Shown here in pieces: positions 37,685-42,838 of a stretch of DNA of 64,000 nt (the first letter of the stretch is position 1; the number at the start of each line of letters is the position of its first letter). The DNA lies in the NCBI RefSeq assembly GCF_003586285.1, contig NZ_QUBR01000001.1:558001-622000 (forward strand), read 5' to 3'. The notes beneath the pieces were generated by a model. It had not been told where the DNA came from, made no database searches, and was given only the letters and a program-made list of their open reading frames with translations. Position numbers and translations under genes: made by a program. The stretch comes from Aeromicrobium endophyticum (GTDB lineage Bacteria; Actinomycetota; Actinomycetes; Propionibacteriales; Nocardioidaceae).

Positions 37685-38815
37685 TCATGCTGCCGGGCTC
37701 TCCGGCTGGAGTCTGGTGGTCCAGTGCAGCAGGCCGTGGCCTTTGTAGCCGTGGTGTCTTCGACAGAGCGGCCCGAGGTTATCTCCCGTGGTCGGACCTT
37801 CGGGGAACGGGATGCGGTGGTCGTAGTCGCAGAACTTCGCCGGCACCATGCACCCGGGGCTCTGGCACGTCCCGTGGAGGAACTGCAACGCGATCTTGAG
37901 GATGTCGGGGGCCACTCGGCCGATGTACTCGTGCGCCAAGACGTCGTCGGTGATCGGGTCGACCACGATGCGGTGCCAGAAACTGTTGCCGGAGCCGACA
38001 ACGGCGGCGATCCACGCGGCCGGGACGCCCCAGCGACCGTCGGCCGACTCGGCGAAGCCGGGGACGAACCCGGCCAGCACGTCGGCGCCGACGGTGACGG
38101 CGATGTTCGCGTCGATGGCTGACGATGCAGCATCCGACTCGGTGCACCACGCGACCAGCAGGTCGGCCTCGCGCTGCGCAAGTGTCCGCTCGTCCTCGGG
38201 ATCGGTGATGCCGCGGGCGGCCTTGCGGTAGCGGTCTTCGATGGCGGCGAGCTCGTGCGACGGCAGGTAGGCGTTGAGCCATCCCATCGAGTCGTCGCCG
38301 TGCGTGACTGACACGTGCCGCTTCTTGCGCTCGTCGTCGGCACGTTCGACTGCCAGGTCGGCCTCGACCCGGCGGACGAACGCCTTCAACCACGCGCGAA
38401 GCTCGGCGACCGTGTGGGTCTCGGCGTAGCCGACGACTCGTCGGTCGAGACGGTGCACCGATTCGGCCCGCTTGAGCTGGTCGATCGTGCTGCCGATCTC
38501 GCGCACCCGCGCCAGGTCGATCCGTCCGTCGAGGAACGCGCCCCACGTCGTCGGCGACTGGTCGCGGACCGTGCCGGCGAACGACAGTCGGTACTGCACC
38601 TGCCCCTCGCTCGTGGCGGAGGCCCCAGCGATCGTCAACGCGACGGACCCGCGCTCGTTGTGCTTCTTCATCGGCGACTCGTCCGACGCGGCGATCCGCT
38701 CCAGCTCGGCATCGCGATAGTCGAGCATCGCCACGACCTCCCGCGTCTCAGCACGCGCCCGCTCCCGCACGAGGTCAGTCAAGACCTCGGTCGCGACAGC
38801 TGAAGTGGTGGCCAT
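37685..38815 (-). CDS. HNH endonuclease signature protein with DUF222 (13E12-repeat type)
   Basis: The 376-residue protein has an N-terminal DUF222 region and a C-terminal HNH nuclease motif. CQSPGC, then [31 protein letters not shown], gives the zinc cysteines and catalytic His residues. Many copies of this family exist per actinobacterial genome and are linked to mobile DNA; their role is not established. It abuts the AraC gene convergently and is divergent from the reverse transcriptase pair. Confidence 0.9.
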
Positions 38816-39173: not shown

Positions 39174-40517
39174 ATGGATCAGAGCTTGTCGTATGACAAC
39201 TTTCGTCGCATCTGGGATCTTCGGACTCGCCGTGGTGAAGACCTTCTGGGTTTCTTCCCGGAAGTAGCCAGCCTCACACAACAAATACGTCTCCACCAAG
39301 TTGCGTCTGGATCCGCGACGATCGCTGGAGGGCCGCGTCCCGCCAGTACAGCAACGGCAGACGCGATCCGCGAATTGCGTAAGCAAAGACGCTCCGAACT
39401 GAAGGCTCGGCTTCTCGACCTAAGTGTCAAGGTCAGCGCCCAGATCGACGACGGCTCATTCGAATACCGGCTTCGAACTGGCGCACTAGTCCGAGGGCGT
39501 CAGACCTATCAGATTGACCTTAGCGACCCCGCAATCTATTTCACCAGCCGACAGGTTGAGTGGAACATTCGAAGAGCGTTTAATGTGCGGCCGGCGAACA
39601 GGAACTTAATCGTCGAGCAGATCGTCCGAACCCTCCAGGACGGCACGCCAAAATTAATTGGCCGAACGGATTTGCGACAATTCTACGAGAGCATCCAGCA
39701 TCAGGCGCTTATTCAGTTCTTGACAAATTCCGGCCGTCTCTCGGCGACGACTCGACGACTGGTCCGACAACTCTTGGATGAATACTCGGCTGCAACAGGC
39801 AAGACTGCCGGTCTACCTCGAGGACTGGCCCTGTCGGCAACTCTCGCCGAAGCGTTCCTCACCCCTCTGGATCGGGACCTGGCAAAAATGGGCGGGGTGT
39901 TGCTCTACGCCCGCTACGTAGATGACATTCTGCTGATATTCGTAAACGACTCATTCAATCCGAGCCTTGAGTCTCGAAAGAAGGGCGTCCGAGACGCAGT
40001 GAAGCGCGCAGGACTCGTTATGAATGCCGGAAAAACGAATTACCTATCCACCTCCGGACCTCCCGGCGCATCACAACGCCTGACCTTCTTGGGCTACCAA
40101 ATCGAGTTTGAACCCGGCTGTACAACGGTCGACATCTCAAAGAAACGAGCAAAACGGTACCGTGAAAAGATTGATGCTTCGCTTGCAACCTTTGAGAGCA
40201 ACGCCAAGGATCCACGAGCACTCCCAGCGCTTCACGAACGCCTCAAGTTCTTGACTGGAAATACACGGCTTGTGAACAATAAGCGCCAAGCGCTCATAGG
40301 AAGCCATTTTTCGAATCCACTAATCACGGCGGCGACGCCGGCATTCGTACGGCTCGACAAGCATCTTCGCAAGGGCGTAAATAACCTCACGCTTGACCAA
40401 ACTGCCAAAGCTGCTCTCGGAACATTCACATTTGCGGACGGGATTGAAAACCGCAGATACCACAATTTTTCTCCTAGACAACTTCAAGGGATTGTGACGG
40501 TGTGGCGGAATGCCTAG
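39174..40517 (+). CDS. drt3a: Defense-associated reverse transcriptase, first RT of a DRT type 3-like pair (UG3-like)
   Basis: This 447-residue reverse transcriptase domain protein carries the motif A Asp at D166 in LIGRTDLRQFYESI. Motif B is GLPRGLALSATLAEAF (about 213-228) and the catalytic YVDD is at 248-251 in LLYARYVDDILLIF. Motif D/E follows at NAGKTNY and RLTFLGYQIE (303-311). There is no group II intron maturase, HNH or retron effector domain. AT-rich codons and lower GC set it apart from its neighbours. The downstream RT gene starts inside its last codons. Two adjacent RTs with these features match antiphage DRT type 3, where this protein extends DNA on an RNA template. The UG subgroup was assigned from memory of family features, not a search. 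ATG 39174 has a weak SD (GAAAGAG). Confidence 0.82.
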   Translation: MDQSLSYDNFRRIWDLRTRRGEDLLGFFPEVASLTQQIRLHQVASGSATIAGGPRPASTATADAIRELRKQRRSELKARLLDLSVKVSAQIDDGSFEYRLRTGALVRGRQTYQIDLSDPAIYFTSRQVEWNIRRAFNVRPANRNLIVEQIVRTLQDGTPKLIGRTDLRQFYESIQHQALIQFLTNSGRLSATTRRLVRQLLDEYSAATGKTAGLPRGLALSATLAEAFLTPLDRDLAKMGGVLLYARYVDDILLIFVNDSFNPSLESRKKGVRDAVKRAGLVMNAGKTNYLSTSGPPGASQRLTFLGYQIEFEPGCTTVDISKKRAKRYREKIDASLATFESNAKDPRALPALHERLKFLTGNTRLVNNKRQALIGSHFSNPLITAATPAFVRLDKHLRKGVNNLTLDQTAKAALGTFTFADGIENRRYHNFSPRQLQGIVTVWRNA

Positions 40518-42597
40518 AAAACATCGCGTGGACGTAAAGCATACGCCTGCCCGGGTCGTGGTCTCCGAGATTCTTCCTTACGAAGTCCCTGTGGGATTCG
40601 ACAACCTCGGACTCTATAAATTCCTTATCGCCGCAAAGATGCAACGCCACGAGTCACGCGTCCATTTCAGCGGGACACATCCAGAGATGGCCGTCGTGCT
40701 CAAAATCATCTTCGGGTCTGATACCGACGTCCAGCCACTGCCTGGCGGTGGCTACTCGATTCCAACCAAAAGCGTTGAGGCATCGACTGTCCCATTTCAG
40801 TTCTTGGTAAGACACAAGGCGAACCAGTCACGGGCTCTGTCCATCGCTCATCCTGCGTCGCAAATCGGTCTGGTCGACTTCTATGACCAGTTCCGAAGCC
40901 TCCTTCTCCTGCACACCAGCACGAGCCCCTTCTCGATCCGTCACCCAAGTCGAATCGCGCGTTATACAACATTCAACGACAGCGTTTTCTCTGAATTGAA
41001 GTCGGCGCCTGGAGGGTCCGTCGAGGCCGAAGATCGGGAGTATGCCCGTTTACGTTCGTACTTTGTGTATCGGCGCTTCGACAACGTTTACAAATTCTAC
41101 GAATCGCCCGAGTATCGACGCCATGAGAAGAAATTTGGCCACCTGTTGCGACTAGATGTGACAAAGTGTTTTGATAGCGTCTACACGCATTCGATAGCTT
41201 GGGCAGTCTTCGGAAAAAACTCTTCGAAACTGGGACTTCGTCAGCATCCGCCGAAGGGCACCCCGCGCTCATTCGCAGACGAATTTGATACCCGGATTCG
41301 CGCGATGAACGATAACGAGACGCATGGCATTCTGATCGGTCCAGAAGTCTCACGGATCTTCGCTGAGATTATTCTTCAGCGAGTCGATTCTGATGTCGAA
41401 GAGTCCTTGCGCGCTGACGGGATTCTTCAGGGTCGGGACTACGAGATCTTGCGTTACGTGGATGACTATTTCGTGTTCATGCGCGATACCGACCAACGGG
41501 ATCACATCGTCAGAACACTTGAGGACTGTCTTCGCCCATTTCGATTCCACCTCAACTCAGCAAAAGAAGAAATCAACACCACGCCTTTCATCTCGGCCTT
41601 ATCAGTCGCCAAAGGTCGGCTTTGGTCAGATCTAGAGGATCGACTGTGCTTGCACGTCGACGTGGTGCACGGCTCATCCATTGAAGGATACGTAGACTTC
41701 CGATCCTCAGCTAACAGTATGATTTCCGCCTACAAAACCACGCTTCGTGAGACGGATCTCAATCCGCTAGATCTAGTCAATTCGTGTTTGGCGCTGATCG
41801 AGACCCGGCTGGAGTTCGAGATTGAGAAGTTTCTGAACGTCGACAGTCAACGACTGAAAGTGCCAACGCCTGCGGACCGGGAACGGTGCGCGTTTTATAA
41901 CCGTCGAAACTTTATGGCGGCACTGCATGCGGCCGTTGAATTCGCGTTCTACGTCTATGGCGGGTCGCCCCGCGTGGGCCCCGCGATCAAATTGGCACGA
42001 CTCGTCTCGCTTTGCCGAAAGGCGGCCAAGACGACCGAATGCTCATTAGATGATCGTGGCCGGCTCGACGACCTAATATCCACCGAACTAACGATTCAGC
42101 TAAACCGAAATCCGCTGACCCAGGAAGCATCAGTTGAAAGCCTTTATCTGCTAACACTACTCGCAGAACTTGGCGACGAGTACGCAATTAGCCTCCCATC
42201 ACTGTGCGACTTCGCAGGAATCTCAGCGGTCGGCAGCCACTTTCATTTGCCTGATTGGTACAACGTGCTAATCGTAAGCGACCTACTTCGGTTCGTGACC
42301 GGCAATTCCCAATACATGCCGATACTTCGCGCGATTGAAGCTTGGATCGTTGCACGTTGCATTGACCTGGAATCCCGTGGACGACGAGAAGCAGAGCAGC
42401 CCTTGCTGGTTCTGAACGTGCTAGCCGCGCCAGCCATCTCGGCAGATACGAAGTACCAAATTTTGAGACTGTATGGAGTCAAGAGCCGAGCAGAAGCTTT
42501 GCTAGTTAGCCAGAGCCAGGATCGATGGTTCACCAACTGGAACATAGAAGACCTTCATGCAGAACTCCTGTACAAGCGGGTGCAAGAGGTATACTGA
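40510..42597 (+). CDS. drt3b: Defense-associated reverse transcriptase, second RT of a DRT type 3-like pair (UG8-like)
   Basis: The 695-residue protein's RT core spans roughly 205-365. Motif A is LLRLDVTKCFDSVYTHSI with D216, motif B is GILIGPEVSRIFAEIIL (273-289), and YVDD is at 316-319 in ILRYVDDYFVFMRD. The FDSVYTHS and GPEVSRI patterns are characteristic of defense RTs related to AbiA/AbiK and the UG groups. About 200 residues precede the core and 330 follow, with no other domain that I recognise. ATG 40510 lies 8 nt inside the first RT gene (ATGCCTAG), indicating coupled translation. In DRT3 this partner is reported to synthesise the complementary dinucleotide-repeat strand without a nucleic acid template. 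Confidence 0.82.
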   Translation: MPRKHRVDVKHTPARVVVSEILPYEVPVGFDNLGLYKFLIAAKMQRHESRVHFSGTHPEMAVVLKIIFGSDTDVQPLPGGGYSIPTKSVEASTVPFQFLVRHKANQSRALSIAHPASQIGLVDFYDQFRSLLLLHTSTSPFSIRHPSRIARYTTFNDSVFSELKSAPGGSVEAEDREYARLRSYFVYRRFDNVYKFYESPEYRRHEKKFGHLLRLDVTKCFDSVYTHSIAWAVFGKNSSKLGLRQHPPKGTPRSFADEFDTRIRAMNDNETHGILIGPEVSRIFAEIILQRVDSDVEESLRADGILQGRDYEILRYVDDYFVFMRDTDQRDHIVRTLEDCLRPFRFHLNSAKEEINTTPFISALSVAKGRLWSDLEDRLCLHVDVVHGSSIEGYVDFRSSANSMISAYKTTLRETDLNPLDLVNSCLALIETRLEFEIEKFLNVDSQRLKVPTPADRERCAFYNRRNFMAALHAAVEFAFYVYGGSPRVGPAIKLARLVSLCRKAAKTTECSLDDRGRLDDLISTELTIQLNRNPLTQEASVESLYLLTLLAELGDEYAISLPSLCDFAGISAVGSHFHLPDWYNVLIVSDLLRFVTGNSQYMPILRAIEAWIVARCIDLESRGRREAEQPLLVLNVLAAPAISADTKYQILRLYGVKSRAEALLVSQSQDRWFTNWNIEDLHAELLYKRVQEVY

Positions 42598-42678
42598 GCA
42601 GGCGCCTCGCACGGCGGTTTACCGTCACACACCAGCGCAGGGGTGGTAATCGAGTACCCCACCCCACCTAATTTTTAG
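42598..42678 (+). ncRNA. Candidate DRT3 RNA: hairpin, ACACAC, terminator-like hairpin
   Basis: Right after the second RT stop comes a small hairpin (CGG-TTTA-CCG, 42615-42624), then single-stranded-looking TCACACACCAGCGCA with ACACAC at 42627-42632. A strong GC hairpin at 42640-42665 follows, then TTTTT at 42672-42676. ACACAC occurs nowhere else in the two non-coding flanks of the RT pair. The DRT3 RNA is reported to template poly(GT) from an ACACAC motif, which makes this the better of the two candidate sites. A hexamer in 240 bp is expected by chance about 6% of the time, so expression data are needed. Confidence 0.45.
42640..42676 (+). terminator. Rho-independent terminator-like hairpin after the RT pair
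   Basis: GGGGTGG (42640-42646) pairs with CCACCCC (42659-42665), and GGTA/TACC can pair within the loop. AATTTTTA follows 5 nt later. It would end the RT mRNA or form the 3' end of the candidate RNA. Confidence 0.65.
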
Positions 42679-42838
42679 TCGCGGTGAGACCGTCTATCTC
42701 CGGCACAGTTCTGGTTCAACCAGCGGCGCCGACCAGAGCACGTGTGGATTGTTGATCCCCGTACGACTGGATAAGCCGCACCGATAGAGCGACGGTCCGG
42801 CCGCGAGCTATGGTCACCTGCGGCGAGGGCCGACAGAT
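42679..42838. other. Non-coding stretch between RT terminator and cobF stop
   Basis: No gene is supported. It contains the perfect short palindrome CTGGTTCAACCAG (42711-42723) followed by CGGCGCCG (42724-42731). The first looks superficially like a tRNA T-arm but has only a 5-nt loop when paired, so it is not one. GC content returns to the chromosomal level here. Confidence 0.5.

Follow-up and report, generated by a model that had tools for sequence, protein, structure and literature searches.

DRT3 is an anti-phage defence system whose mechanism has been studied in Escherichia coli, in a system with a long non-coding RNA (ncRNA) (Wang et al. 2026, PMC13174585). There, the ncRNA lies downstream of DRT3b, and the reverse transcriptase (RT) Drt3a uses its ACACAC loop as the template for poly(dTdG), while the second RT, Drt3b, makes poly(dCdA) without a template; mutating the ACACAC loop segment abolishes defence (PMC13174585). 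Residues E22, R241, R71 and Y666 of E. coli Drt3b have roles in base gating, product contact and priming, with E22 and R241 being the base gates and Y666 the priming residue (PMC13174585). Stem-loop 4 beside the E. coli DRT3 template and SL5 in DRT10 (PMC12632851) act, or have been proposed to act, as template boundaries. The DRT10 ncRNA likewise yields a tandem-repeat product by realignment but differs in its RT family, its variable template, its length of 137 nt, its location upstream of a SLATT gene and the lack of a second RT (PMC12632851). Here, a stretch of 64,000 nt from Aeromicrobium endophyticum (contig NZ_QUBR01000001.1, positions 558,001 to 622,000; hereafter the window, in whose own numbering all positions are given) was analysed, and its nucleotides 42598–42676 (+ strand) very probably encode a template RNA of a compact, pseudoknotted type, ~79 nt long, that belongs to a DRT3 defence system. 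This kind of RNA is already known (2026); the compact variant with a pseudoknot into the terminator loop appears to be new.

As in E. coli, the RNA follows the two RT genes in the order drt3a-drt3b-ncRNA. By sequence comparison, these genes are drt3a and drt3b of an anti-phage DRT3 system. The first (39174–40517, +) encodes a class 2 (UG3) RT of 447 amino acids with a YVDD motif (PADLOC Drt3a, 9.5e-94; PDB 9z6y Drt3a, 1.2e-26), and the second (40510–42597, +) a class 1 (UG8) RT of 695 amino acids (PADLOC Drt3b, 6.4e-162; PDB 26cz, 1.9e-64). The genes are adjacent with an overlap of 8 nt, and Drt3a and Drt3b were their best PADLOC matches. Both RTs also matched the Drt3a/Drt3b complex in PDB 9z6y/9z6z, which is presumably that of Deng et al. 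2026, covered in the review PMC13314766. The residues reported for priming, base gating and catalysis in Drt3b are all present, where E25, R108, R282 and Y695 of the window protein correspond to E. coli E22, R71, R241 and Y666, in that order, and these positions are kept in 105–108 of 108 Drt3b homologues. Judging from these residues, the window Drt3b is expected to synthesise poly(AC), and Drt3a is the expected user of the RNA template.

The putative template ACACAC (42627–42632, +) sits 29 nt past the drt3b stop codon, which ends at 42597. It is the sole copy between 38000 and 44000 and one of three in the whole 64 kb; GTGTGT was not found between 38000 and 44000. An earlier reading of the bare sequence (the original prediction) had pointed to this hexamer as the only copy in the non-coding flanks, unpaired, and part of a possible template RNA, on the premise that ACACAC is the DRT3 template for poly(GT). 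Sequence counting and RNA folding confirmed the first two points, and the premise agrees with the literature (PMC13174585).

Relatives were collected through genome, plasmid and viral searches, which yielded 482 loci; the search of viral contigs returned 32 loci with an alignment as the query and none with the window protein alone. Of 102 related loci, spread over six phyla, 100 have ACACAC in the first 300 nt past drt3b, compared with 6.5 expected from base composition. Since these loci include close relatives, the effective number is smaller, with the excess being too large for kinship to matter. It is this conservation, and not the statistics of the single locus, that makes the ACACAC of the window meaningful. 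The two loci without it (L054 and L063, bee-gut Orbaceae) have CACACA in the same place, and a further actinobacterial locus (L136) has only CACACA downstream of drt3b. In all three, the template is shortened to two and a half repeats, and its structural position is unchanged.

RNA folding placed ACACAC between a 5-bp hairpin (42613–42617/42622–42626) and a 7-bp hairpin (42640–42646/42659–42665). The former, P2 (GGCGG-UUUA-CCGUC, 42613–42626, +), is flush with the 5' end of the template. The latter is terminator-like (GGGGUGG/CCACCCC, 42640–42665, +), holds one strand of the pseudoknot in its 12-nt loop and is followed by a T-run (42672–42676, +), the probable transcript end. The outermost stem, P1, closes the fold around ACACAC with a GCGC 5' arm (42602–42605, +) beginning ~4 nt past the drt3b stop and a GCGC 3' arm (42635–42638, +), leaving the template in a single-stranded stretch of 8 nt, ACACACCA, that separates P2 from P1. 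The original prediction had described ACACAC as unpaired between a small and a strong hairpin, the latter with a T-run. Both hairpins and the T-run are real, but the closing stem and the pseudoknot had been overlooked, the T-run lies 6 nt beyond the stem and was not listed by a strict terminator scan.

The same arrangement was found among compact RNAs, where P1 begins a few nucleotides past the stop codon, its 3' arm directly follows the template, P2 is flush with the 5' end of the template, and the single-stranded segment between P2 and P1 measures 8–9 nt in 63 of 78 loci. For P1 and P2, 87.9% of cells were paired and 78 were double-change cells compared with 28.7 in shuffles, with slid controls at 19–41%. 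Conservation of ACACAC and the flanking stems after homologous RT pairs, for which covariance modelling had been suggested at the outset, was thus strongly borne out. A hold-out covariance model was trained on 42 relatives, leaving out the window and its congener (L158, G129:C1:632800-642800; Drt3a 41% and Drt3b 50% identical to the window proteins). Its best match in the window was 42599–42641 (E 0.015), and its top match in the 4-Mb genome was this same locus (20 bits). Together, the near-universal motif, the covariation of P1 and P2 and the hold-out model support the proposed template RNA. A comparison with Rfam gave no match among 4227 families at E up to 10. P2, which holds the position of E. 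coli stem-loop 4 and DRT10 SL5, is the likely template boundary. Six very short RNAs (L074, L075, L080, L082, L090 and L093) have P1, the template and the pseudoknot, and a scripted search found no P2 in them.

The predicted pseudoknot joins CUCG (42606–42609, +), immediately 3' of the P1 5' arm, to CGAG (42651–42654, +) in the loop of the terminator-like hairpin. In non-actinobacterial compact loci, the P1-adjacent strand is complementary to a downstream strand over at least 5 bp in 74 of 77 cases, represented by 54 different helices, and permutation of the partners reached the observed score in 0 of 20000 trials. Covariation, scored on a 25-sequence alignment not fitted to this pairing, revealed 98% of cells to be paired and 43 double-change cells compared with 12.8 in shuffles (slid controls 27–48%), with changes on both sides in five of the six pairs. 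The downstream strand lies within the terminal hairpin loop in 50 of 53 loci, and at least five T residues occur within 12 nt after the terminal stem in 31 of 53. Seven actinobacterial RNAs show the same loop pairing with one hairpin fewer (permutation 7/20000); double changes occurred in four of four pairs, with two alignment rows out of register. Between the window and the congener, the strands CUCG/CGAG and CCCG/CGGG differ by one compensatory pair. For this locus, homology argues for the pseudoknot, and template presentation or a coupling of folding to termination are hypotheses for its role. A description of the compact architecture with its terminator-loop pseudoknot was not found in the texts consulted, none of which names both Drt3b and a pseudoknot, though the structural study by Deng et al. 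may show it; the text on the E. coli system (PMC13174585) does not mention such a pseudoknot.

Several features of the locus weigh against its assignment as a template RNA. The hold-out match is modest, with a whole-genome E of ~1 and the next match at 17.8 bits, because the model is short. The pseudoknot comprises only 4 bp, and a 5-bp pairing, CUCGC/GUGAG, with its 3' strand past the T-run (42684–42688), competes with it. Furthermore, the T-run is short and detached from the stem, both ends of the RNA (5' and 3') are inferred, the fold beats shuffles only moderately (z-score −1.97; 9 of 200 shuffles equally good), and an ACACAC anywhere in the 300 nt downstream would arise by chance with p ~0.08 at this locus alone. 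The last two values, together with the strong hairpin and the T-run, would also suit a mere intrinsic terminator of the RT operon in which ACACAC occurs by chance. We consider this extremely improbable, as ACACAC recurs in nearly all of the relatives, on which ground the explanation was discarded, and compensatory changes are seen in two stems and in a pseudoknot that lie upstream of the terminator loop and reach into it. The competing pairing, which corresponds to the proteobacterial spacing (+45), was also rejected; actinobacterial loci did not score above chance for it (16054 of 20000 permutations at least as good), and the proteobacterial strand is itself in the terminator loop, which in the window lies nearer.

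The extent of the template RNA was delimited by comparison with the congener. In the last 40 codons of drt3b, wobble positions were 42% identical, whereas ~40 nt after the stop codon were nearly identical (local score 89 compared with 34 ± 5.5 in shuffles, maximum 51); past this block, nothing rose above background (local score 41 compared with a shuffle maximum of 51). Therefore, the RNA core starts after the stop codon. The original prediction had left the choice between a compact RNA and the 3' end of a longer one, and of these, the compact form is favoured. A longer functional RNA, reaching well into drt3b or carrying more stem-loops as in E. coli, would be in line with the inferred ends and with E. 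coli-type systems, where ACACAC lies 92–222 nt past the stop (92–129 nt in E. coli DRT3 itself) and extra stem-loops are present. This is unlikely given that the outermost stem starts directly behind the stop codon, that the wobble positions upstream are unconserved and that long RNAs belong to a separate clade. In the Drt3b tree, 13 long-RNA systems, among them that of E. coli in PDB 26CZ, formed one clade with a support of 100, and the window fell outside it; the deep forks should be read with caution, given the FastTree support values and the long branches. Outside this clade, the tree has compact RNAs, with representatives in Actinobacteria, Pseudomonadota, Bacteroidota, Nitrospirota, Acidobacteriota and Margulisiibacteriota, and E. 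coli also carries compact-type systems (L126). The extra stem-loops of the E. coli RNA are a feature of the long clade and not of the whole family, and the ~79 nt of the window RNA have room for nothing beyond P1, P2 and the terminator hairpin, a compact layout shared with most relatives.

A P1 of 10 bp in E. coli and 9 bp in Enterobacter was seen by eye in the long class; the signal over 19 loci was weak (649/20000), and P1 is not claimed there. In the long RNA of E. coli F404 (L125), a closing stem of 10 bp, GUUAAAAGGU/GCCUUUUAAC, encloses the template, and UGCG beside this stem could base-pair with a CGCA of the terminator loop, like in the compact RNAs; this was not significant across the long class.

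A separate promoter for the RNA was not seen at the locus, and thus, release from the operon message would be the simplest route. The location in the 3' untranslated region and the lack of an apparent promoter would likewise fit an element that is not a template but acts in cis on regulation or RNA stability, sensing or binding the RT. Such an element is very improbable here in view of the single-stranded, nearly invariant ACACAC flush with a hairpin, which agrees with both the poly(dTdG) product and the template tested in E. coli (PMC13174585).

As a template RNA, the element would form the 3' end of the drt3a-drt3b transcript and terminate at or just past the hairpin 42640–42665. Covariation in relatives indicates that P1, the pseudoknot and P2 keep ACACACCA single-stranded. 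By analogy with E. coli and DRT10, Drt3a would bind the RNA and copy ACACAC into GTGTGT, P2 would keep it from reading past the template's 5' edge, and the product would realign one or two repeats further back on the AC repeat and be re-extended, with the synthesis of poly(GT) at this locus extrapolated from the E. coli work. Drt3b, judged by its conserved residues, would supply untemplated complementary poly(AC) primed from its last tyrosine, with E25 and R282 as base gates. Poly(GT) and poly(AC) may then anneal to double-stranded DNA and phage-infected cells be arrested, as known for E. coli only.

A rather doubtful extension is that the terminator hairpin belongs to the active fold and that its loop locks the template core, so that the RNA becomes active only once transcription ends there. 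If true, host or phage transcription factors could switch DRT3 via RNA folding; GreA, for which E. coli DRT3 has an unexplained need, and phage antiterminators would be candidates. The DRT3 RNA would then also be a minimal bacterial analogue of the template-boundary-pseudoknot core of telomerase, whose RNA likewise combines a short repeat template, a boundary element and a pseudoknot in one molecule; this is an analogy and not a claim of homology. A natural RNA of 79 nt with a defined core of P1, pseudoknot, P2 and template is a very small RNA for reconstitution and points to the essential parts. The pseudoknot is a specific predicted tertiary contact that is testable by compensatory mutations. 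In addition, the sequence-structure rule is offered for annotating the RNA of compact-type DRT3 systems in Actinobacteria, Bacteroidota and Pseudomonadota.

In two congeneric genomes, that of the window and that of L158, DRT3 occupies the same flank of cobF, with its orientation reversed between the two. The flanking genes are 89–96% identical, but Drt3a and Drt3b only 41% and 50%; the site beside cobF looks like a hotspot with independent acquisitions. Directly upstream of the DRT3 system in the window is a DUF222 gene (37685–38815, − strand), which is probably of the HNH type and 13E12-repeat-like.
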